Part shown: positions 7,517 to 21,223 of the stretch, in pieces
Layout: every line of letters starts with the position of its first letter
Position numbering within the stretch: position 1 is the stretch's first letter
Source: a virus
Length of the DNA stretch: 22,678 nucleotides
Virus record (IMG/VR): IMGVR_UViG_3300042691_031571
Coordinates: 1-22,678 of that record
Direction: 5' to 3' (one strand)
Position numbers and translations under genes: made by a program
Notes under the pieces: generated by a model
Told to the model about the DNA's origin: nothing
Seen by the model: the letters and a program-made list of their open reading frames with translations, nothing else
Database searches by the model: none

Positions 7517-8238
7517 TCAGGGCTGCTGAGTCTTCGACTTTCGCTCTTGCTCTTCGCGGTCGTTCGCTATAACTTTAGCACAGGCAAGCCTTATGAACCA
7601 GTCAGTCTCGTCGGAGTCGAGGAGCCGGAGTGGGTCCGTACCAAACAGCTCGCCCAGTCTGGCGGCTGTTTTAATGTCGGGCTCGTCAACTAGTTCGTCG
7701 AAGAGCCCCTCGTAGGGTCGACAGCGTCTACCGTATCCGAGAATCCTGCGGCATCAAGAATTGCAAGAGCAGCAGCCTCTACGTGTGGGTCAACACCAAA
7801 GAATGCACGAACGCAATCTGGAAGTGGGCGACTTGTTTCGGTCATTTCAAGCATTAACGGAGAGGCAAAAGTAATTTCATTGCCATTATCGTCGAATACT
7901 TCTTCGCCGTCAATTTCAATACCGACTGTTGTGTGTCCGATAACCATGCATGCAAACTTGGTTGCATCTAGACCGTTTCTTGAATCCTCACCAGCTTGCT
8001 TGCGCCAGTTGCGCATCTGATTCTGGGTGATGTTTGGGCTAATTCGCACATGAACGCCAGGACGTTCTGGCACCTCAAGAAGCACGACTGCGCGTTCAAC
8101 TTTTTTGGTCACAACTTCACGCAATCGTGAAAGTGCTGTGTCTGACTTCGACGCTGTCGGCTCGCTTTTTGCCTGCTTGGCTTTTGGCGCCGGGGTAGAA
8201 GGGGTATCGTCTGTGCTGTAAAGGCTGTTGTCGCTCAT
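7517..8238 (-). CDS. Tail assembly chaperone, long form by -1 frameshift (gpGT-like, 240 aa)
   Basis: The short frame (7690-8238) stops shortly after a GGGGC run. In the -1 frame an open extension runs from 7705 to a TGA at 7519-7517. Slipping at GGC to GGG (minus-strand AGGGGC, 7710-7705) joins 178 upstream codons to 62 more. The extension begins LFDELVDEPDIKTAARLGEL, carries a TDWFIRLA helix and ends in a charged EEQERK tail, which is the character of gpT-type extensions that recruit the tape measure. Frameshifted chaperones just before the tape measure are conserved in lambda, P2 and many actinophages. The exact slip site is inferred; CCT to CCC at the preceding CCCT is an alternative, because AGG to GAG repairing at GGGGC is poor. 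Confidence 0.75.
7690..8238 (-). CDS. Tail assembly chaperone, short form (gpG-like, 182 aa)
   Basis: This is the zero-frame product between tail tube and tape measure. The N-terminal 40 residues are Ser/Thr/Ala/Lys-rich and probably disordered. The middle has a compact alpha/beta segment (RVVLLEVPERPGV-type strand, then a helix ending in MRNWRKQAG). The C-terminus has FASPLMLEMTETSRPLPDCV and an acidic helix. It probably coats the tape measure during tail assembly and is absent from virions, as known for lambda gpG-type proteins. No strong Shine-Dalgarno is seen: the only candidate AGG lies within the arm of an inverted repeat (8242-8297), so translation may be limited. The family is called from position plus the frameshift, since sequence similarity in this family is low. 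Confidence 0.75.
   Translation of the reverse strand: MSDNSLYSTDDTPSTPAPKAKQAKSEPTASKSDTALSRLREVVTKKVERAVVLLEVPERPGVHVRISPNITQNQMRNWRKQAGEDSRNGLDATKFACMVIGHTTVGIEIDGEEVFDDNGNEITFASPLMLEMTETSRPLPDCVRAFFGVDPHVEAAALAILDAAGFSDTVDAVDPTRGSSTN
7705..7710 (-). other. Probable -1 programmed frameshift site in the tail chaperone
   Basis: The minus strand reads AGG GGC in the zero frame, with the -1 frame GAG GGG CTC open for 62 further codons. GGC to GGG preserves the first two codon positions; the P-site codon repairs poorly, so this is not a textbook XXXYYYZ heptamer. CCT to CCC in CCCT, two codons upstream, is a second candidate. Small hairpins lie downstream (stem CTCAG/CTGAG at 7517-7531), but they are far from the site and may be unrelated. 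Confidence 0.5.
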
Positions 8239-8789: not shown

Positions 8790-10259
8790 TTAGACGACTG
8801 ACGCCGTAAGGTTTGACTTGATGATGTCGACTTCGATTTTGTCGCCAACACCGCTGACACGTAGGCCAACCTTTGCCTTCACAGTGCCACCGGCAAGCTG
8901 TGCAGTTGGGTTGAGCTTCGCATCGCAGCGGACTGTGAAACCTGAGTCGAGCTTTCTTCCGTTCACATCGTACGCCTCGAAGAGTGCACCAATGTCGCGG
9001 AGTGGAGAGAGAATCGCAATAAGTCGTGATTCAACAGCACTGAAGATTGTATTTCTTCCATCAATTGTGCTGAAGACCAAGTCCTCAAGGCTTCTCTGAG
9101 CCTCAACAACAACATGGTTAACCGTGTCTTGCTGAGTAATAAATCTAAAGTTGTCTTCATCCGAAGATAGTGAGCGAGCACCATAGACTCGAACCGAGTT
9201 CTGAATCAAACGGATGACGTTCACATACGCTTCGTCGAGTGCGTCTCCATCGGTTTTGTTGATGTCGGTCTTGACTCCAGAAACAAATCGCGCAGCTGAA
9301 AGAAGACCAGCTGGGGGAACATGTGAACCGGTTTGGTTGTGAGCAACTGCACGCTTTGCTGCTACGTAGCCATCTGGCGGGATGTAGCGAGTAACGCCAT
9401 TAGTCGTTGTTGGAACCTCAATCCATGGGTAGTACAACGCTGCATGTTCAGCATGGTCTCCACCTTGAACATCAAGAGCTCTTGTTTCTGCATCTGCGGT
9501 TGTTGCTGCTTCCGCGACATGCAGAATCGCGATTCTGTTATTTGCGTTTGCATGTGCAACCAAGTCTTCGCTCATTGCGAGAGTGTGTGCTTCTGGGCAT
9601 GCAACTGCACCAGAACCATACGAATCCAAGAACAAATCAAGCGAGTCTGCGTAATCAGACTGTGTCACCGATGCTCTGTCGTCTGCACCAGCAGAAAGTG
9701 CCGAGCCAGCAACTGTAGCTGGTCTAGTAGTTGCAGCTGCATTAGCTGTTGCCGTTACATAACGTGAAGCTACCGAGCTGAGATTGATTCTTCCAGCAGC
9801 CTGTGCAACAGTTGTTACTGTTCCAGTTGTGTAAATGACATCTCCGTTGTAGGAAAGTGAAACTTTAAATGTGTCCACGCTTGGATGTGTGACAGTAACC
9901 TCTACGTCTGCGCTCCATGCGCCAGCGCCATTAGCGTCAAGTGTCAAAACTGTTGATGCAGACTGTGCGCCAGTTCCCAAAAGTGCGAGAGTTCCCTCTG
10001 TTGCGGCGGCACCTACGGTACGAGCAACGTAGCACTGTGTGCCGCCTTCTTCGAAGAATGTCTCCACTGTCGGATGAAGATATGAGTACGACTGGTAACC
10101 ACCAAAGGTCGCCTCAAAATCGGCAATGCTCTCCACCATGACTGCTGCTGCATCTGGTCCTCGCTCTGCGAGACCGACTACGAACAGCTGTGACGACTCG
10201 CGAACGGTCGTTGCTGAAGGGCCTGTTCTTACTGCTGTTGAAATGACTACACCGGGCAT
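8790..10259 (-). CDS. Contractile tail sheath protein (489 aa)
   Basis: The N-terminus PGVVISTAVRTGPSATTV, then SSQLFVVGLAERGP and SIADFEATFGG, followed by a PTVETFFEEGGTQCYVAR strand, is the standard opening of phage sheath proteins. The middle (about residues 95-200) is Thr/Ala-rich and beta-like, probably a surface insertion domain. The C-terminal third has the conserved core: a VNVIRLIQNSVRVYGARSL segment, a helix ESRLIAILSPLRDIGALFEA and a final KVGLRVSGVGDKIEVDI strand that links neighbouring subunits. This gene is the key evidence for a myovirus. AGGAG lies 7 bases before the ATG, and the gene has its own 133-base upstream gap. Confidence 0.92.
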   Translation of the reverse strand: MPGVVISTAVRTGPSATTVRESSQLFVVGLAERGPDAAAVMVESIADFEATFGGYQSYSYLHPTVETFFEEGGTQCYVARTVGAAATEGTLALLGTGAQSASTVLTLDANGAGAWSADVEVTVTHPSVDTFKVSLSYNGDVIYTTGTVTTVAQAAGRINLSSVASRYVTATANAAATTRPATVAGSALSAGADDRASVTQSDYADSLDLFLDSYGSGAVACPEAHTLAMSEDLVAHANANNRIAILHVAEAATTADAETRALDVQGGDHAEHAALYYPWIEVPTTTNGVTRYIPPDGYVAAKRAVAHNQTGSHVPPAGLLSAARFVSGVKTDINKTDGDALDEAYVNVIRLIQNSVRVYGARSLSSDEDNFRFITQQDTVNHVVVEAQRSLEDLVFSTIDGRNTIFSAVESRLIAILSPLRDIGALFEAYDVNGRKLDSGFTVRCDAKLNPTAQLAGGTVKAKVGLRVSGVGDKIEVDIIKSNLTASVV

Positions 10260-12176: not shown

Positions 12177-12236
12177 CTAGTAATTCAATAAATTGTAATT
12201 AGATGTTTTAATTCTAAAAACCTTATTAATTACTAG
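12177..12236. repeat. 9-base perfect inverted repeat in AT-rich gap
   Basis: CTAGTAATT at 12177-12185 is exactly complementary to AATTACTAG at 12228-12236, with 42 bases between. It almost fills the gap between the 84-aa gene and the connector and lies just upstream of the extended -10 candidate. It could be an operator pair, an RNA hairpin or a weak terminator; there is no clear T-run after the leftward arm. Confidence 0.5.
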
Positions 12237-12487
12237 TTTCTGTAAGTCTGGACCATGCCCCTGGACCGCAACTCGTTTTCACATTCAAGAATTGTTTCAT
12301 AGTCTGGCGGGGAGAAATAATCAAACGGCCGGTCGGAAACTCGGCTTTCTGCATACTTCCGTGCATAGCGCTCACGCAGAAGCGACCATAATTCTTTTTC
12401 CCATTCAGTTTTGCTGAATGTATCTTCACCGTCGCCAAAGTACTTTGGCTTATGTACGTCTTGCACCATATTCCCCTTGTTGGTCAT
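12233..12487 (-). CDS. Hypothetical protein (84 aa)
   Basis: A short acidic/aromatic protein (KPKYFGDGEDTFSKTEWEKE, helix WSLLRERYARKYAESRV, then SPPDYETILECENELRSRG). Composition and predicted helices look like a real protein, and the gene sits 20 bases after the H1-like gene on the same strand. Translation could start at the first ATG (AGGG about 9 bases upstream) or at Met7, which has AAGGGG only 3 bases before it. No family is recognised. The position between DNA-binding and connector genes suggests a virion assembly role, but this is only context. Confidence 0.55.
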   Translation of the reverse strand: MTNKGNMVQDVHKPKYFGDGEDTFSKTEWEKELWSLLRERYARKYAESRVSDRPFDYFSPPDYETILECENELRSRGMVQTYRN

Positions 12488-12507: not shown

Positions 12508-13050
12508 TTAGCGAGATTTCTTCGCTGCTTTCTTAACTGGTCTTGCTGATTTCTTTGCGGCCTTCTTCGCCGGTGCCTTCTTGGCGGCTTTCTTTGTAGC
12601 TTTCTTAGCAGGGGCCTTTTTGGCCGCCTTCTTTGCCTTCTTTGCTTTCTTTGTCGCCTTGGCTGCTTTCTTTGTTGCCTGACGCCCAGCATTTCTGATG
12701 TCGGCGGCGGAGCGATTAGCAAGTGAACGGCGAGCAAGTCTCGCTCTATCTCTTCTCTGCTTCAACAAACCAGGTGGAAGGGCTGGTCTGCCGCGGAGGT
12801 TAACGCCAGCGACGCTTCTTGTTCTGCCAGATTGGTCGTAGCCCTGTCGAGCAGTTGAGTACTTAGCCAGCTTGTTCATCGTTGCAACGTCGCCGAATCC
12901 AGCACGAATCGCATCCTGTACTTCTTTCATGCGCGACTTTGCTCTATCGGTCATACGACCTTGGCCACGAAGTTTGCGAAGACGCTCGTAATCCTTGCGG
13001 AGCACTTCTGCATCGTCTGTAATGTCTGGGCCGTATCTGAGTCCTGGCAT
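12508..13050 (-). CDS. Basic protein with histone H1-like Lys/Ala/Pro tail (180 aa)
   Basis: The first 120 residues are helical and Arg-rich (VLRKDYERLRKLRGQGRMTD, and a RRDRARLARRSLANRSA helix). Residues about 124-180 are a low-complexity tail of repeated AAKKAPAKK/ATKKAAKK units, very like the C-terminal tails of histone H1 and of actinobacterial HU (HupB). Such tails bind DNA or RNA by charge. The gene heads the virion-assembly block, preceded by AGAGG four bases before the ATG. Possible roles are an internal DNA-condensing virion protein, a packaging helper or a host-nucleoid mimic; I cannot choose. The repeats are also visible in the DNA (12520-12690), so length variation between relatives would be expected. 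Confidence 0.75.
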   Translation of the reverse strand: MPGLRYGPDITDDAEVLRKDYERLRKLRGQGRMTDRAKSRMKEVQDAIRAGFGDVATMNKLAKYSTARQGYDQSGRTRSVAGVNLRGRPALPPGLLKQRRDRARLARRSLANRSAADIRNAGRQATKKAAKATKKAKKAKKAAKKAPAKKATKKAAKKAPAKKAAKKSARPVKKAAKKSR

Positions 13051-13102: not shown

Positions 13103-13651
13103 CTATCTATCGCTATTTGGTGGGCGCTCAATGTAGGGTCCTCCATCAACGGAGTTGCTTGGTGCTTCGATTGGAACCCAAGCCCTCGAATAGGTGTGTT
13201 CGGGAACCTTTCTTATCTTTATCAAGTCCCCCATTTCGAGCAACTCTAATTCATCTACACCTATTTTTAATAACTTATCAAAATCAGTTTTGTCATATCT
13301 TCCGGACATGCTTAGCTTTCGAATAATAGATGACACTTTCTTGGCCACTAAAGAGCCTTTCCCCCTGTTGAGCCTGAGGTGCATCATCATTGCCTCAATC
13401 GAATCGCAGTCGTGGAAAATCACGGGAATCTTGTTGTTGATTTTTTTAGCAATATGGGAAACATTTGAAGCAAGAAGCCATCTTTCACTTCCGTCGATAA
13501 TCTCCATAGTCTCGCGTCGCACATGGATTGGTTGTATAAAACCAAACTCATACAACGATGCAGACAAGACGAGTAAATCGGGTCTCAGTATGTGGGTCGC
13601 TTTCCATGATGGAATCTTTAGTTCACTTATTGCAACGTATTTAATATCCAT
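13103..13651 (-). CDS. ParB/Srx-domain protein (IbrB-like), 182 aa
   Basis: The N-terminal 100 residues match the ParB/sulfiredoxin fold: an ISELKIP strand at residues 8-14, LSASLYEFGFIQPIHVRRE with its GxxQPI core at 37-42, IIDGSERW at 51-58 in place of the usual G-E/H-x-R nucleotide loop, IPVI at 75-78 and LRLNRGKG at 92-99. Domains of this fold bind nucleotides and occur in chromosome partition ParB, serine kinases and the IbrB partner of IbrA. The protein lacks the helix-turn-helix DNA-binding half of true partition ParB. It overlaps the PAPS-reductase-like gene by 11 bases, as expected for an IbrA/IbrB-type pair. The reaction is unknown. Confidence 0.8.
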   Translation of the reverse strand: MDIKYVAISELKIPSWKATHILRPDLLVLSASLYEFGFIQPIHVRRETMEIIDGSERWLLASNVSHIAKKINNKIPVIFHDCDSIEAMMMHLRLNRGKGSLVAKKVSSIIRKLSMSGRYDKTDFDKLLKIGVDELELLEMGDLIKIRKVPEHTYSRAWVPIEAPSNSVDGGPYIERPPNSDR

Positions 13652-14774
13652 CTTGTTCTGCTTTCTCCTCTACTCTTACAGCATGGGCTTTAGTTTTTGG
13701 TCCAACAGGTGTTGGCGCTACAACATCGATGTCGTTAAGTAATAGGTTGCGAATCAGCCAGCTAATTGGGTATCCATATGGGTCCTGAACATGCTTCTGT
13801 CTAAATCTTGCTATAAAGGTTTTTGCTTGACGATTATCTCGTTCTCCAAGAATGTAGTCATCCACAAAACTGCCGGCACCAGTAAAACCATCTTTGGAGT
13901 AACTACCGATTAGTTTTTCAATGTCAAAATCTTTCCACCATCTCCTCTGCGCATCTATGTGCGGGAAACATTCATACAGTCTGTCGTAAAATTCTGGTTC
14001 GGTGGCAACCACATCACCGATTCTTCGAATGGCAACAGAGTGCAGCGGTATTCCGACTCGAGTATTGCTTCCCGTGAGCGCGGCCAAGTCGTAGTACTCG
14101 CAGTATTCTGCATTGTGTTCTTCGGTTATGAATTTGAAAACATCATCTGTGTTCCAGTCATAAATAATCTTTGCAAACTTCAGTGGAACGTTTCTGTTTA
14201 GCTTGTATGGCGTGACGATGTAGTTTTCATGCAGCTTCTGAACTATCGAGCGATACCTAACCATTGATTCGCTTGCCCTCACCCCAGTAAGGAACGCGAC
14301 ATTGCCGACCTTGCCATTCATGATGTAGGTATCTGTCTGGTCCGGCAATGAGCGGGAATGGTCTAATCCAAAGTCGTAGGCAGTAATCGCCCATGGCGGC
14401 ATATCTCGAACGAGCCTATTTTCGAGTCGTCGTTTCTCGCTCCACAGGACCGTGGTTTCACGTCTACCGAGAACCCATACTTCTGCCGGGTATGGAAGGC
14501 AGTACCACTCCATGTCTACCCAGTCATAATTGCGAACGCGCTCTACGTATTCAATCGTTTTTGGACTAACCATTTCCTCATCGCGAAATATTACTTTTAC
14601 CGGCCCAAGTCCTCGTTCTTCATGAACTTCTTTTGCTAAAAGCAGAACAGCGGTTGAGTCTTTGCCACCGGAGAACTGAACGCATACAGTGTCGAAAATG
14701 TCGTAAACATGTCGGATGCGTTGCCTAGCAGCCTCAAGGCACGACATGTCCAAGAACATTCTTTGTCTGGTCAT
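13641..14774 (-). CDS. PAPS-reductase-like (IbrA-like) N-type ATP pyrophosphatase (377 aa)
   Basis: The PP-loop SGGKDST is at residues 35-41 after a VCVQF strand. A second conserved patch, LTGVRASESMVRYRSI, is at 162-177. Both are seen in the PAPS reductase/IbrA superfamily of ATP pyrophosphatases, which adenylate a substrate or handle sulfonucleotides. Between them are YCLPYPAEVWVLGRRET and an aromatic region. The C-terminal half (DWNTDDVFKFI, then EFYDRLYECFPHIDAQRRWW) resembles IbrA-type proteins. The Cys of the ECGLH motif of genuine PAPS reductases is not seen, so simple sulfate reduction is unlikely. It overlaps ParB/Srx genes on both sides (4 and 11 bases). Substrate and role are unknown; DndC-like DNA sulfur chemistry is one speculative possibility. 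Confidence 0.85.
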   Translation of the reverse strand: MTRQRMFLDMSCLEAARQRIRHVYDIFDTVCVQFSGGKDSTAVLLLAKEVHEERGLGPVKVIFRDEEMVSPKTIEYVERVRNYDWVDMEWYCLPYPAEVWVLGRRETTVLWSEKRRLENRLVRDMPPWAITAYDFGLDHSRSLPDQTDTYIMNGKVGNVAFLTGVRASESMVRYRSIVQKLHENYIVTPYKLNRNVPLKFAKIIYDWNTDDVFKFITEEHNAEYCEYYDLAALTGSNTRVGIPLHSVAIRRIGDVVATEPEFYDRLYECFPHIDAQRRWWKDFDIEKLIGSYSKDGFTGAGSFVDDYILGERDNRQAKTFIARFRQKHVQDPYGYPISWLIRNLLLNDIDVVAPTPVGPKTKAHAVRVEEKAEQDGY

Positions 14775-15562
14775 GGCATTCGTGAATCTATAAAACTAAT
14801 TAACTTTTCTGCAGTGGTATTTCCAACAAATTCTGGGTCACTGCGAAGCCATTTTATAAACTTGTACCAAACAGCCTGTTGGTCGGAGTTGTCAAACACC
14901 AACGTGTATTGGACAGCCGCTTGAGGTGCTGCACCAGGAACCGCAATAGTAGAACCACGAGTTGCAATATCGTTGTGGTCGAGATTAGAGGGAGCAACAA
15001 TTCTGTTCTCTCCGTCTTTGTCTTGCTCAATCATTGTCTTAATTGAAGATGCGGCGGCTTCGTAATTTTTTCTGCTCTGCTCAAGCTCGGCATCAAAGCC
15101 ATCTTCAATTCCAGAAGCCGCACGGTGCTCGTCGATTATTGATTCACTCTCTATTGCTGCAAGCTCGAACTCATCCCAGCCAAGGTCCTCTAACAATTCT
15201 GGATAAAACTCACTAATATCAAGAAGCATGTCAGTAAGTAATTCCGGCTCTGTGTATCCAAGCTCCATTGTTCTGTTGTCTGCGAGAGCAAATGCGATAG
15301 CACGTTTATCGTCTGCATCCAAAAACACAACAGCAATCTCATCCCAGCCAAGAGCCTTTGCTGCTTCAAGCTGATGGTTCCCAGCGATTACCGTCGAAGT
15401 TCCATCTTCATTCTTTCTGGCGACAATTGGTTTTACTTGGCCAAACTCTGAATAGGAAGCCATGATTGCATCGACATTTCCAACTCTTGGGTTGCCCTCA
15501 AGAGGGGAAAGCGAATCAATATCAACTGCCATTGACTTGAGCGATTGGTGAATATTATTCAT
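14771..15562 (-). CDS. ParB-like nuclease-domain protein (263 aa)
   Basis: Residues 13-100 form a clear ParB/Srx domain: VDIDSLSPLEGNPR at 13-26, EFGQVKPIVARK at 39-50, the nucleotide-loop GNHQLEAAKALGW at 61-73 and the closing FALADNRTMELG at 91-102. An acidic region follows (LLTDMLLDISEFYPELLEDL), then a helix and a C-terminal segment (YTLVFDNSDQQAVWYKFIKW) that looks like a separate small domain. Many phage ParB-like proteins next to methyltransferases or PAPS-reductase-like enzymes share this ADNR architecture. The start overlaps the 111-aa gene stop as ATGA, and its own stop overlaps the PAPS-reductase-like start. Nucleotide binding is inferred from the fold; DNA cleavage is unproven. 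Confidence 0.85.
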   Translation of the reverse strand: MNNIHQSLKSMAVDIDSLSPLEGNPRVGNVDAIMASYSEFGQVKPIVARKNEDGTSTVIAGNHQLEAAKALGWDEIAVVFLDADDKRAIAFALADNRTMELGYTEPELLTDMLLDISEFYPELLEDLGWDEFELAAIESESIIDEHRAASGIEDGFDAELEQSRKNYEAAASSIKTMIEQDKDGENRIVAPSNLDHNDIATRGSTIAVPGAAPQAAVQYTLVFDNSDQQAVWYKFIKWLRSDPEFVGNTTAEKLISFIDSRMP

Positions 15563-15894
15563 ACTTGCACTCGCACGTTTGCATTAAGTGTTCTCATCGC
15601 ATCGATAGATGTTCTCAGGGAGAGCAGAGCCTCTCGCTTGGTTTTTACAAGTGCTTCTGCAATTTTAAAATCAAATGCAACTTGGTCAAGTTTGTAATCC
15701 GCCCATGCTTCTCGCTCTTTGATTGAGCCTTTTGCAGCAAGGTATTCTTTTGCCCAGTTAGACTTATAACCTGCTTCTTTCTTTGCGGCATCAACTGCAA
15801 GGACTTCAAATTTCTCTGTCTCTACTTCCAGTGCATCAATAAGTCGAAGCAATTCTTGCTCTATTTCGACTTGACTAATAGGCCCATTTCTCAT
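15559..15894 (-). CDS. Hypothetical coiled-coil protein (111 aa)
   Basis: This is an almost fully helical, charged protein. An N-terminal helix (VEIEQELLRLIDALEVETEK) is followed by AGYKSNWAKEYLAAKGSIKE and a C-terminal helix AEALVKTKREALLSLRTSID. Small proteins with this Y..ayA..yL..kGs...R...a pattern occur near recombination genes in many phages, but I cannot name a function. It overlaps both neighbours by four bases (RuvC-like upstream, ParB-like downstream), so it is co-translated with a resolvase, and a DNA-recombination accessory role is plausible. Confidence 0.7.
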   Translation of the reverse strand: MRNGPISQVEIEQELLRLIDALEVETEKFEVLAVDAAKKEAGYKSNWAKEYLAAKGSIKEREAWADYKLDQVAFDFKIAEALVKTKREALLSLRTSIDAMRTLNANVRVQV

Positions 15895-16427
15895 GACGCT
15901 CCAAGTTTTTCAATATAGGAATTTAGGTAGGTCCAATCTACTTTCTCTAGCGCTGTCATGTGTGTCGCTGGCCAACTAAATCTGGGGTTTCCGAGGCGAC
16001 ACAGGACCATTTCCTCCATCACCCATGCGTCGCATTTGTCGTCCGCACCGGGATTCTGCCAGATAAGTCCGGTTTTTGCAGATATCGAAGAAATAACTTC
16101 ATTTTTAGAAGCATTTCCTTTTCCTGTTGCAAATTTTGCTCGACACGTTGGAGGAATAGTTACCACCGGTTTTCCAAGTTCCCAAAGCAGAAGGCGTACA
16201 ACGCCGCCTAATTCACCGATTGAATGGGACTGTGAGTTTCTTGAAGAAAAGGCGTAGCCCTCAATAGCGACTAGGTCTATAGAGAATCTGATAACAAGAT
16301 TTTCTATTTCTTTTCTTATGAGCCAAAGTCGGTGTGGGCCAGTCTCGTTGGTGGAAATGACACCAGTTTCCCCGTTGTGGCAATATCCTGTCGAGGTGAG
16401 AGAAAGGTCTAGCGCAAGGATATTCAC
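15891..16427 (-). CDS. RuvC-like Holliday junction resolvase (178 aa from GTG)
   Basis: This is a RNase H-fold resolvase. Counting from GTG at 16427, the opening NILALDLSLTSTGYC gives catalytic D7; LVAIEGYAFSSR gives E56; the Lys-containing FATGKGNASKNEV is at 99-111; and NPGADDKCDAW gives D130/D133. It should cut four-way junctions or branched DNA before packaging. An ATG 14 codons upstream (16469) exists, but it lies in the loop of a strong terminator and would add the odd sequence MFGGFLLLWISIWQ; starting at GTG gives the normal RuvC N-terminus. No good Shine-Dalgarno precedes the GTG, so initiation may be weak or leader-controlled. It heads the operon continuing through the ParB/PAPS-reductase-like genes. 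Confidence 0.85.
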   Translation of the reverse strand: MNILALDLSLTSTGYCHNGETGVISTNETGPHRLWLIRKEIENLVIRFSIDLVAIEGYAFSSRNSQSHSIGELGGVVRLLLWELGKPVVTIPPTCRAKFATGKGNASKNEVISSISAKTGLIWQNPGADDKCDAWVMEEMVLCRLGNPRFSWPATHMTALEKVDWTYLNSYIEKLGAS

Positions 16428-16452
16428 TTGCCAGATACTAATCCATAAAAGC

Positions 16453-16486
16453 AAAAACCCGCCGAACATCTAGCCGGTTCGGCGGG
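16453..16486 (-). terminator. Strong intrinsic terminator just before the RuvC-like gene
   Basis: Read leftward, arms CCCGCCGAAC (16486-16477) and GTTCGGCGGG (16467-16458) form a perfect 10-bp stem with a 9-base loop, followed by TTTTT, GC and TTTT. This is the best terminator in the window, yet the next gene on the same strand starts only about 25 bases after the T-run, so it looks like an attenuator or the end of a short RNA. Confidence 0.85.
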
Positions 16487-16600
16487 TGTCACTTGGGCTG
16501 GTGGCGCTGATGTTTGCCGTCGCTTTGCCGTAGCTCTCGCTACTAGACCTTTGGGACCACCTGCCTTTCTTCCGCTGAGGGTAGATATGGGCTAGATGAA
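16453..16600 (-). ncRNA. Candidate structured leader/small RNA before the resolvase operon
   Basis: No credible gene covers this stretch. Leftward from repeat copy R1 it contains CATCTAGCC (16598-16590), a GTAGC-GAGA-GCTAC hairpin with a GNRA tetraloop (16543-16530), possible GGTGG/CCACC pairing, and the terminator at 16486-16453. The terminator loop (GGCTAGATG, 16475-16467) is complementary over 9 bases to CATCTAGCC. The two pairings probably exclude each other, the layout of a transcription attenuator or riboswitch, or a small RNA closed by a pseudoknot. I do not recognise a known family. Confidence 0.5.
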
Positions 16601-16629
16601 AAAAGAGTAACACTAAAAATAAATACTGA
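16601..16629. repeat. AT-rich repeat copy R1
   Basis: A 29-base sequence (plus strand begins AAAAGAGTAACACTAAAAAT and ends AATACTGA) recurs with one missing base and a two-base swap at 16739-16766. Read leftward it ends with TGTTACTCT, an extended -10-like element, followed by T-rich sequence. It immediately precedes the structured segment that ends in the 16453-16486 terminator. Confidence 0.65.
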
Positions 16630-16678
16630 TTAGTAAACAAATTAAAAATTAATTGTGGTGATTTTGTACATGCAAGAA

Positions 16679-16709
16679 CCGGGTGCTGCACGTTGCCCTT
16701 TGCACCCGG
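16679..16709. other. 8-bp GC-rich hairpin between the two repeats
   Basis: CCGGGTGC at 16679-16686 pairs perfectly with GCACCCGG at 16702-16709 around a 15-base loop. There is no T-run on either side (leftward it is followed by TTCTTG), so it is not a normal terminator. It is probably an RNA structure of the noncoding locus. Confidence 0.55.
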
Positions 16710-16718
16710 CCCTCGCAC

Positions 16719-16735
16719 CTATAACGGTCCTAAGG
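16719..16735 (+). other. 17-base match to 23S rRNA helix 69-71 (I-CeuI core)
   Basis: CTATAACGGTCCTAAGG is identical to the universally conserved segment of bacterial 23S rRNA (E. coli numbering about 1914-1930), which is also the core of the I-CeuI homing site. Flanking bases do not match. If the region is transcribed leftward from R2, the RNA would be antisense to the rRNA very near its 5' end. Confidence 0.6.
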
Positions 16736-16738
16736 ATT

Positions 16739-16766
16739 AAAAGAGTACAACTAAAATAAATACTGA
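16739..16766. repeat. AT-rich repeat copy R2
   Basis: This 28-base partner of the repeat at 16601-16629 differs by one indel and a two-base swap. Read leftward it ends with TTGTACTCT (-10-like TAnnnT), and a TTGACA lies 5 bases upstream of the repeat, 22 bases from the -10-like element, longer than a standard spacer. Two near-identical copies in one noncoding region argue for a phage-specific promoter or a protein-binding site; an origin role is also possible because of the AT content. Confidence 0.65.
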
Positions 16767-16777
16767 AAGTGTCAAAT

Positions 16778-16809
16778 AAAAAAAATCAAAGTTATTTTTT
16801 CCAACTTTG
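16778..16809 (-). terminator. Intrinsic terminator overlapping the HNH stop codon
   Basis: Read leftward, CAAAGTT (16809-16803) and AACTTTG (16793-16787) form a 7-bp stem with a 9-base A-rich loop, followed by ATTTTTTTTATT. The HNH stop TAA lies within the hairpin. It closes the operon that begins at the large terminase. Confidence 0.7.
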
Positions 16810-17166
16810 TTTTGCCAAACCTAAATCAAAAGATAGTTGCGGATTATTTCCAATTCTTGTGTGGCATTGCCTGCATACGGCAAGAACGTTATTTTCATCG
16901 AGAATGGAGCCGCCTTGAGAACGACGGATTAACTCATGAACGTCAACACTTGGTCTTTGAATAAACGTAGTTTTACCATCGTGCTTTGCAAACACTACGC
17001 ATGCCTCACAGTTTGGTCTCTCTGAAAGAATTTTCGCCACGAAAGGTCTGCGCTTTTCATAGGTGGCCTCCATCTTTTTGCTTCTTTTTTTAGGAGGAGC
17101 ACCTCTTTTTAATGGAGTTTTTTGTTTTGGTGGCTTGCTTCGCTTTATTGGCTTTTTGCGCTCCAT
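16792..17166 (-). CDS. HNH endonuclease (124 aa)
   Basis: The N-terminus (about 1-40) is a Lys/Pro-rich basic tail. The HNH domain follows: CEAC zinc knuckle at C53/C56, the catalytic DVHELIRRSQGG at 75-86 with H77, the ENNVLAVC strand at 91-98 with the N, and CRQCHTRIG giving C98/C101 and H102. Small HNH enzymes of this kind lie near terminases in many cos-type phages, where they are needed with the large terminase for DNA cutting at packaging. No separate terminase small subunit is seen in the window, which makes a packaging role attractive; free-standing homing activity is the alternative. It starts two bases after the stop of the 170-aa gene. Confidence 0.88.
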   Translation of the reverse strand: MERKKPIKRSKPPKQKTPLKRGAPPKKRSKKMEATYEKRRPFVAKILSERPNCEACVVFAKHDGKTTFIQRPSVDVHELIRRSQGGSILDENNVLAVCRQCHTRIGNNPQLSFDLGLAKQSWKK

Positions 17167-17681: not shown

Positions 17682-18455
17682 TTATCTACTCCATGCAGGA
17701 CATATTTTCTTGTAACTACAAAAATTACAGAGATATGAAGTTCTTGCTTCAAACACTCCTGTTTTGCAGGAGTTGTCAACTTCTTGTTTTGTCTCCAAAA
17801 CATATTCTGTTGTCTTCTCGATATCCGCTGTAGTGATTGTCTTTTCTAATCGAACGCCATCTTTTAGGTACAGCAGTTCAACTTTGTCTACATCGCCAAC
17901 GCCAAGGTTTGAAAGAAGAATTGCATACAACAAGAGTTGTGTGAACTTCTCGTCAACATACGAACCCTTTGGTGTTTTGCCGGTTTTATAGTCGGAGACA
18001 GTAAGCATCAGAGAGTCTTTGCTGGGACCGTATCTATCTATAAATCCACGAATCTGAACGCCACCGATTTGCCCATTAAGTTCAAACTCAAGGCCTGTTG
18101 GTGCAACGAGTTTTGGGTCTTCAATCAACCAAAGATTTTCAACACAGAACCAAGCAGTCCATCGGAAATCTTTAATCTCCTTATCAGTACGCAATACGCG
18201 ATAAGCCTCGTCGGCCCATTTTGAATCCCACATGTCTTTTGCAATAAGACGAGCTGATTCAATTACGCGCATCTCTGGTGGGAGTTTGTACATTTCCTCA
18301 AGTATGTCGTGGACAAAATTACCCAATACCGCCCAGTGATTGGATGGGTCTGGTATCAGGTCAATCTTGTTGAACTTGAACTTCTGTGGACACTGATTGA
18401 AAGTGCTTAATGAAGACGGGGACAAATACTGAGGTGGCGATATGTCACTTATCAT
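17682..18455 (-). CDS. Cas4/RecB-like PD-(D/E)XK exonuclease with Fe-S cysteines (257 aa)
   Basis: Core nuclease motifs are in order: SPSSLSTFNQCPQKF with C22, GNFVHDILEEMY with H49, GFIDRY with D140 and SDYKTGK with D155/K157. The C-terminus has C243, C246 and C252 (YLCNFCSYKKICPAW), which with C22 give the four-Cys 4Fe-4S arrangement of AddB and Cas4. Such enzymes resect DNA ends. It overlaps the Rad52-like gene by 11 bases, suggesting a two-component exonuclease/annealing recombination pair analogous to lambda Exo/Beta. There are no cas1, cas2 or repeat arrays here, so it is not part of a CRISPR system. Confidence 0.88.
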   Translation of the reverse strand: MISDISPPQYLSPSSLSTFNQCPQKFKFNKIDLIPDPSNHWAVLGNFVHDILEEMYKLPPEMRVIESARLIAKDMWDSKWADEAYRVLRTDKEIKDFRWTAWFCVENLWLIEDPKLVAPTGLEFELNGQIGGVQIRGFIDRYGPSKDSLMLTVSDYKTGKTPKGSYVDEKFTQLLLYAILLSNLGVGDVDKVELLYLKDGVRLEKTITTADIEKTTEYVLETKQEVDNSCKTGVFEARTSYLCNFCSYKKICPAWSR

Positions 18456-21022: not shown

Positions 21023-21223
21023 ATGCCGAAATTCTTGTTGTGGTTGACAAAAACCCGCTCAAAGCTTAAGGCGGCAGCTAAGCGCTCGACCTTCGCTAAC
21101 TTGTTCATGATTTCGTTTATACTGTTTACCAGTATTGGTGCGGCACTTATATTCCCTCCTGCCGGGCTGATAGTGGCAGGTATTACGTGTGGTCTATTCG
21201 GCTATCTATTGGGTCTTGAGTAA
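21023..21223 (+). CDS. Small two-helix membrane protein (66 aa)
   Basis: A basic N-terminus (residues 1-23, KTRSKLKAAAKRST) is followed by two hydrophobic segments, about 25-45 (FANLFMISFILFTSIGAALI) and 46-64 (PPAGLIVAGITCGLFGYLLG), joined by a Pro turn. The N-terminal charge predicts cytoplasmic ends. Its stop lies two bases before the portal ATG, so both are likely one transcript. AGGAG lies just two bases before the ATG, an unusually short spacing. A holin or other membrane function is possible but unsupported; phage genes of this size next to the portal are usually uncharacterised. Confidence 0.65.
   Translation: MPKFLLWLTKTRSKLKAAAKRSTFANLFMISFILFTSIGAALIFPPAGLIVAGITCGLFGYLLGLE

Follow-up and report, generated by a model that had tools for sequence, protein, structure and literature searches.

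The window analysed here is a stretch of 22,678 nt (IMG/VR record IMGVR_UViG_3300042691_031571, positions 1 to 22,678) from a group of uncultured freshwater bacteriophages, in which a locus for two putative small RNAs, RNA-A and RNA-B, adjoins a DNA-repair gene. This gene (15891..16427, minus strand) encodes a RuvC-like Holliday junction resolvase (phrog_159, E 1e-32), and its reading frame starts at a GTG at 16427, not at 16469. Its upstream neighbour is an HNH endonuclease gene (16792..17166, minus strand; phrog_15522, E 9e-11), and between the two lies an intergenic region of 362 nt, the second half of which (16453-16600) had been singled out by the original prediction. Downstream of RuvC, a PAPS-reductase-like enzyme is found beside ParB-like proteins (window 13641-15562), in an arrangement resembling DNA sulfur-modification neighbourhoods. 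The window also contains a small protein with a histone-like KKAAKKAPAKKATKK tail (12508-13050) and a tail sheath protein (phrog_23; 8790-10259), so that the tail is probably contractile. The same RNAs beside RuvC have also been found in contigs of 150-170 kb.

When the RuvC protein was used as a query against IMG/VR, 80 loci were collected, in most of which the whole intergenic region is conserved. Judged by alignment, this region encodes two candidate RNAs on the minus strand, each with its own inferred promoter: RNA-A (about 16735-16671) and, downstream of it, RNA-B (about 16598-16453, some 145 nt long), which is the feature originally noticed. Two repeats, R2 and R1, each terminate in a TAnnnT hexamer, and a conserved minus-strand element begins 6-7 nt further on. 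The putative -10 box of RNA-A, TACTCT (16742..16747, minus strand), lies inside the second repeat copy and shows the TAnnnT spacing; that of RNA-B, also TACTCT (16604..16609, minus strand), lies inside R1, and its T, A and final T are invariant in the alignment.

RNA-B finishes at an intrinsic terminator, P3, with a U tract (16453..16486, minus strand). As had been predicted, its stem consists of 10 perfect base pairs (CCCGCCGAAC/GTTCGGCGGG, 16486-16477 and 16467-16458 on the minus strand) followed by TTTTT (16457-16453), and the 9-nt loop between them (16476-16468) carries GGCUAGAU. The GNRA hairpin GTAGC-GAGA-GCTAC, here P1, is likewise present (16543-16530, minus strand). The 9-base match also holds, the plus-strand letters at 16467-16475 (CATCTAGCC) being exactly complementary to those at 16590-16598 (GGCTAGATG). 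On the minus strand the latter are the 5' arm of RNA-B, CAUCUAGCC (16590..16598), whose pairing with the terminator loop (P0) is deduced from complementarity and from the comparison of homologues. Base 16467 is at once one of the nine and the first base of the 3' arm of the stem, so that 8 pairs are possible while the stem is closed.

Across homologues, P3 is paired in 99.2% of cells, with covariation in 6 of its 10 pairs, and P1 in 97.3%, with covariation in 3 of 5 (its loop is GNRA in this phage). P0 is paired in 84.6% of cells, and both sides change in only 2 of its 8 pairs. Loss of the 9-bp pairing in homologues that retain the terminator had been named beforehand as an outcome that would speak against it, and the result is divided: the main clade retains 6-9 bp, whereas the pairing is gone in L034, L070, L104, L062 and L072 and absent or very short in L074. 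As the functional core of the locus this pairing was rejected, being mostly an invariant CUAG, weakly covarying and missing in outgroups. Other parts of the region are better conserved and more unusual than this pairing; the best-conserved are a segment of RNA-B complementary to 16S rRNA (16570-16555) and a segment of RNA-A complementary to 23S rRNA (16735-16719), the second of which falls outside the interval first described. The strong evidence comes from this comparison and not from the folding of a single sequence; taken by itself, the 148-nt stretch has a fold energy only modestly lower than that of shuffles (z = -1.8).

The original prediction had offered two explanations for this structure. 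According to the first, the region would be an attenuator or leader of the RuvC operon, in which alternative pairing of the 5' arm sets read-through of the terminator. Both the terminator and the 9-base complementarity are real, and the 5' arm is predicted to be able to pair with the anti-16S segment instead. However, RuvC has a putative -10 box of its own 3' of the terminator (TAGTAT, 16435..16440, minus strand), 7 nt before the GTG (TAGTAT-N7-GTG), and of 34 distinct upstream sequences, 29 show a consensus match in which TAnnnT ends 6-8 nt before the start of RuvC. Since this is leaderless spacing, RuvC appears to be transcribed as a leaderless message from a point 3' of the terminator. Moreover, the loop pairing leaves the stem intact and is therefore not mutually exclusive with it, P0 has disappeared from several homologues, and in most members shuffled arms pair with the anti-16S segment at least as well as the 5' arm does, a result which also led to the rejection of autoinhibition of RNA-B by its own arm. 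The putative box of RuvC speaks against its transcription through the terminator from an upstream promoter, no mutually exclusive covarying pairings were found at the locus, and an Rfam search for a known riboswitch or leader family returned chance matches only, none near the gathering score. Attenuation of RuvC is consequently considered very improbable. The second explanation, a small RNA that ends at the terminator, is supported by the TAnnnT box 6-7 nt before the 5' arm, the covariation of P1 and the terminator, and the conservation of the RNA.

In the window, a TAnnnT also stands 6-7 nt before the start codon of the genes at 7690-8238, 12233-12487, 16792-17166, 17682-18455 and 21023-21223, as expected for leaderless messages of actinobacterial type, and other genes of this phage have SD-like sites instead.

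The 5' segment of RNA-A, CCUUAGGACCGUUAUAG (16719..16735, minus strand), is an exact 17-nt complement of helix 69 of 23S rRNA, its target corresponding to positions 1915-1931 of the E. coli rrlA gene; in 2000 shuffles of the region, no complementary run exceeded 15. In 50 of 61 distinct sequences the TAnnnT box ends exactly 6 nt 5' of the CCTTAGG segment, and in 4 more it ends 7 nt from it, a spacing that would place the 5' end of RNA-A at the first complementary base. The segment is carried by 72 of the 79 RuvC loci with enough upstream DNA, all of which were collected without making use of it, and it is near-invariant in the RNA-A alignment; except for a T-to-C change in L072/L073, all differences fall within the first 1-3 nt. 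A single change inside the 17 nt (GUUACAG) is seen in L072/L073, L321 and L325. This near-invariance ends where the complementarity to 23S rRNA ends, and the adjoining hairpin (16671..16717, minus strand) varies with compensation: pairing is kept in 99.3% of its cells and both sides have changed in 15 of 16 pairs, a result that neither shuffles nor slid registers approach. Many of these pairs are G-U, which would be A-C mismatches on the opposite strand, indicating that the RNA that folds is the antisense of rRNA and not a mimic of it. Searches of RNA-A against 16S and 5S rRNA, and for rRNA mimicry by either strand, gave nothing long. The length of RNA-A is estimated at about 65 nt, its 3' end being uncertain because a U tract follows the hairpin in some members only.

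It could be argued that the 17-bp identity with the 23S gene is a feature of the DNA, namely a homing-endonuclease site or the core of an integration (att) site. The sequence lies in the I-CeuI target region of the 23S gene, a known homing site, and an HNH gene adjoins the locus. Nevertheless, neither kind of DNA site accounts for a hairpin that covaries and has strand-specific G-U pairs, or for a -10 box at a fixed distance; no phage-host junction with GGYG was found in 84,980 genomes, and none of the 10 window proteins scanned is an integrase, which leaves this reading with almost no credit.

In RNA-B, the best-conserved internal block is AGAAAGG-C-RGGUGGUC, represented in this phage by AGAAAGGCAGGUGGUC (16555..16570, minus strand). 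It is complementary to the last bases of actinobacterial 16S rRNA, GAUCACCUCCUUUCU, which constitute the anti-Shine-Dalgarno tail, and forms 14-17 bp with them in 38 of 38 homologues, the duplex reaching the 16S 3' end UUUCU (the assumed mature end). The 16S tail is the strongest site for RNA-B in the whole of 16S and 23S rRNA, and the anti-16S segment is the only such place in this phage. In the isolated RNA, most of this segment is predicted to be in base pairs, with a mean unpaired probability of about 0.2. The predicted internal partners of GGUGGUC vary among members, several of which have almost no downstream partner, and hence GGUGGUC does not seem to be kept for internal pairing.

A different view of both RNAs is that they are structured small RNAs with other targets, a protein or a phage mRNA, and that their complementarity to rRNA is a by-product of SD-like purines in RNA-B and of a chance match in RNA-A. 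Indeed, the segment of RNA-B is purine-rich like an SD, shuffles of it match the observed energy in about 0.5% of trials, and almost all members keep a C that bulges or is mismatched in the duplex with 16S rRNA, a conservation that pairing with rRNA does not explain. However, distant homologues collected with a covariance model are a better test of the 16S pairing than these shuffles, their sequence being altered and their predicted pairing as good or better: L090 (AGGGAGGGGGUGGUCC) reaches -28.6 kcal/mol and L146 (AGGGGAAGGUGAUCC) -29.1 kcal/mol, in each case with 0 of 400 shuffles as good, and L101 (AGAAAGGUGGUGAUU) reaches -24.9 kcal/mol, with 2 of 400 as good. The match of RNA-A, for its part, is exact over 17 nt, nearly invariant and restricted to the unpaired tail, and both targets are functional centres of the ribosome. 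A by-product thus seems unlikely, although it deserves to be kept in mind. What the alignments do establish, at the level of sequence, is the structures and their strand, their conservation, the complementarity to rRNA and its upkeep in diverged homologues.

The junction pattern of RNA-A has matches in at least 119 stretches of IMG/VR and none in 84,980 genomes of bacteria and archaea; similarly, RNA-B was found in none of 395 Acidimicrobiia genomes, and both RNAs are absent from the cultured phages searched. Among the matches listed, RuvC lies directly downstream of RNA-A in 105 of 119 instances, and nine copies of RNA-A have no RuvC match in their locus; in eight of these the 17 nt are the same and the hairpin sequence is different. 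A second group of phages whose locus has no RuvC match can be recognised (L185, in the 2264 region, L109, L119, L121, L123, L188, L190 and L191), in which RNA-A has a different hairpin and an extra 5' stretch, GCAGCGAAAGCUAA; a GCUA within this stretch could lengthen the 23S pairing by 4 bp beyond a bulged A. The two RNAs are not always together, and either can occur alone. In a diverged group (L072, L325, L331), RNA-B precedes RNA-A, as seen in L072 and L325. Two further candidates were dismissed as chance: the one match to an RNA-A variant fitted to Actinomycetes helix 69, which is coding DNA without a hairpin, and a match in an apparent isolate genome (L324), which is also coding DNA.

As for the host, nearly all Acidimicrobiia with a match have the sequence ACGGUCC in helix 69, and their 16S tail is UUUCU. 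In Actinomycetes the sequence is ACCAUCC, which has two mismatches to RNA-A (-18.2 kcal/mol, as against -28.1 kcal/mol for ACGGUCC). Helix 69 of E. coli also matches RNA-A, so that the match cannot single out Acidimicrobiia and would rather count against Actinomycetes. Close relatives of the phage proteins (54% for RuvC, 81% for terminase) turned up in a single bacterial bin, which bears the label Acidimicrobiia and whose phage contig carries neither RNA-A nor RNA-B. An Acidimicrobiia host is therefore inferred from one binned contig, whose membership of the bin is weak evidence.

Both rRNA targets, which belong to the subunit interface or the mRNA path, lie exposed when the subunits are free, and helix 69 carries pseudouridines. 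Taking into account that bacterial growth is inhibited by antisense peptide nucleic acids (PNAs) directed at exactly these two sites (reviewed in PMC7038079), and that protein synthesis in mycobacteria almost ceases when the M. tuberculosis toxin MazF-mt11 removes the anti-SD (PMC12274833), the most likely reading, to which we assign a probability of about 0.6, is that the phage uses RNA-A and RNA-B as antisense RNAs against host rRNA, by which translation initiation in the host is inhibited or redirected during infection. The two RNAs would be transcribed from their TAnnnT boxes, bind rRNA and thereby affect translation. Thus, the 17-nt 5' tail of RNA-A would invade helix 69 of 23S rRNA (intersubunit bridge B2a), through which RNA-A would occupy free 50S subunits. 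RNA-B, closed in most members by the pairing of its 5' arm with the terminator loop, would pair through its 16-nt segment with the 16S 3' tail and occupy the anti-Shine-Dalgarno of free 30S subunits, and together they would inhibit or redirect initiation.

Some points speak against this proposal: helix 69 has to open before RNA-A can bind, the occluded anti-16S segment of RNA-B would need opening, and many genes of this phage have SD-like sites, so that a block of the anti-SD would hit the phage too. The last of these would be explained if the RNAs paired with rRNA in order to protect 16S and 23S from the cuts of host defence toxins (of MazF or RelE type, known in actinobacteria), keeping ribosomes for a phage that itself needs SD initiation. 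But a tightly paired anti-SD would itself block initiation, and the cut of MazF-mt6 presumably falls about 9 nt outside the pairing of RNA-A; protection in this sense appears quite improbable. A more elaborate form of antisense control, which we hold to be doubtful, is a two-part attack in which, with the anti-SD and helix 69 both blocked, assembly-dependent SD-led initiation would be stopped and intact 70S ribosomes left to leaderless messages, some of them from the phage. The escape of leaderless messages is speculative, and earlier evidence from E. coli for such selectivity was not supported by follow-up work (PMC12274833).

If antisense control of host translation by these RNAs is true, it would represent a new mode of host takeover, with two natural translation inhibitors acting at sites that already serve as antisense drug targets, and the matching of helix 69 and the 16S tail would provide a host-prediction key for uncultured phages. 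To our knowledge, no known phage controls host ribosomes by antisense RNA against rRNA, and a full-text literature search covering open-access PMC papers found no phage antisense RNA of this kind.

Among known systems, trans-acting base-pairing sRNAs with Rho-independent terminators share with the phage RNAs an own promoter, a structured body, a conserved pairing segment and a terminator. RNA-B has a putative -10 box and a covarying Rho-independent terminator, RNA-A has a clear box, the terminator of the locus being that of RNA-B, and both possess conserved segments complementary in trans, to 23S helix 69 and to the 16S tail. The difference is that such sRNAs target mRNA, whereas the apparent target of the phage RNAs, which match no Rfam family, is rRNA. 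MazF-mt11, MazF-mt6 and RelE1 of M. tuberculosis (PMC12274833, PMC12620021) disable the same regions of the actinobacterial ribosome, the anti-SD and 23S rRNA, although they are host protein ribonucleases and the phage candidates are base-pairing RNAs. The archaeal tRNA-derived fragment Val-tRF (PMC11009984) is, like them, a non-coding RNA, which binds the 30S subunit and inhibits translation; it is a tRNA fragment acting at the decoding site, whereas the phage RNAs carry a long antisense stretch against helix 69 or the 16S tail. Synthetic PNA oligomers directed at helix 69 of 23S rRNA and at the mRNA-binding site of 16S rRNA (Kulik 2017; Hatamoto 2009, as cited in PMC7038079) resemble the phage RNAs in having the same two rRNA targets and in acting on them by base pairing, and, according to that review, they inhibit growth; these oligomers are man-made, whereas the phage RNAs would be their natural, phage-encoded and conserved counterparts.
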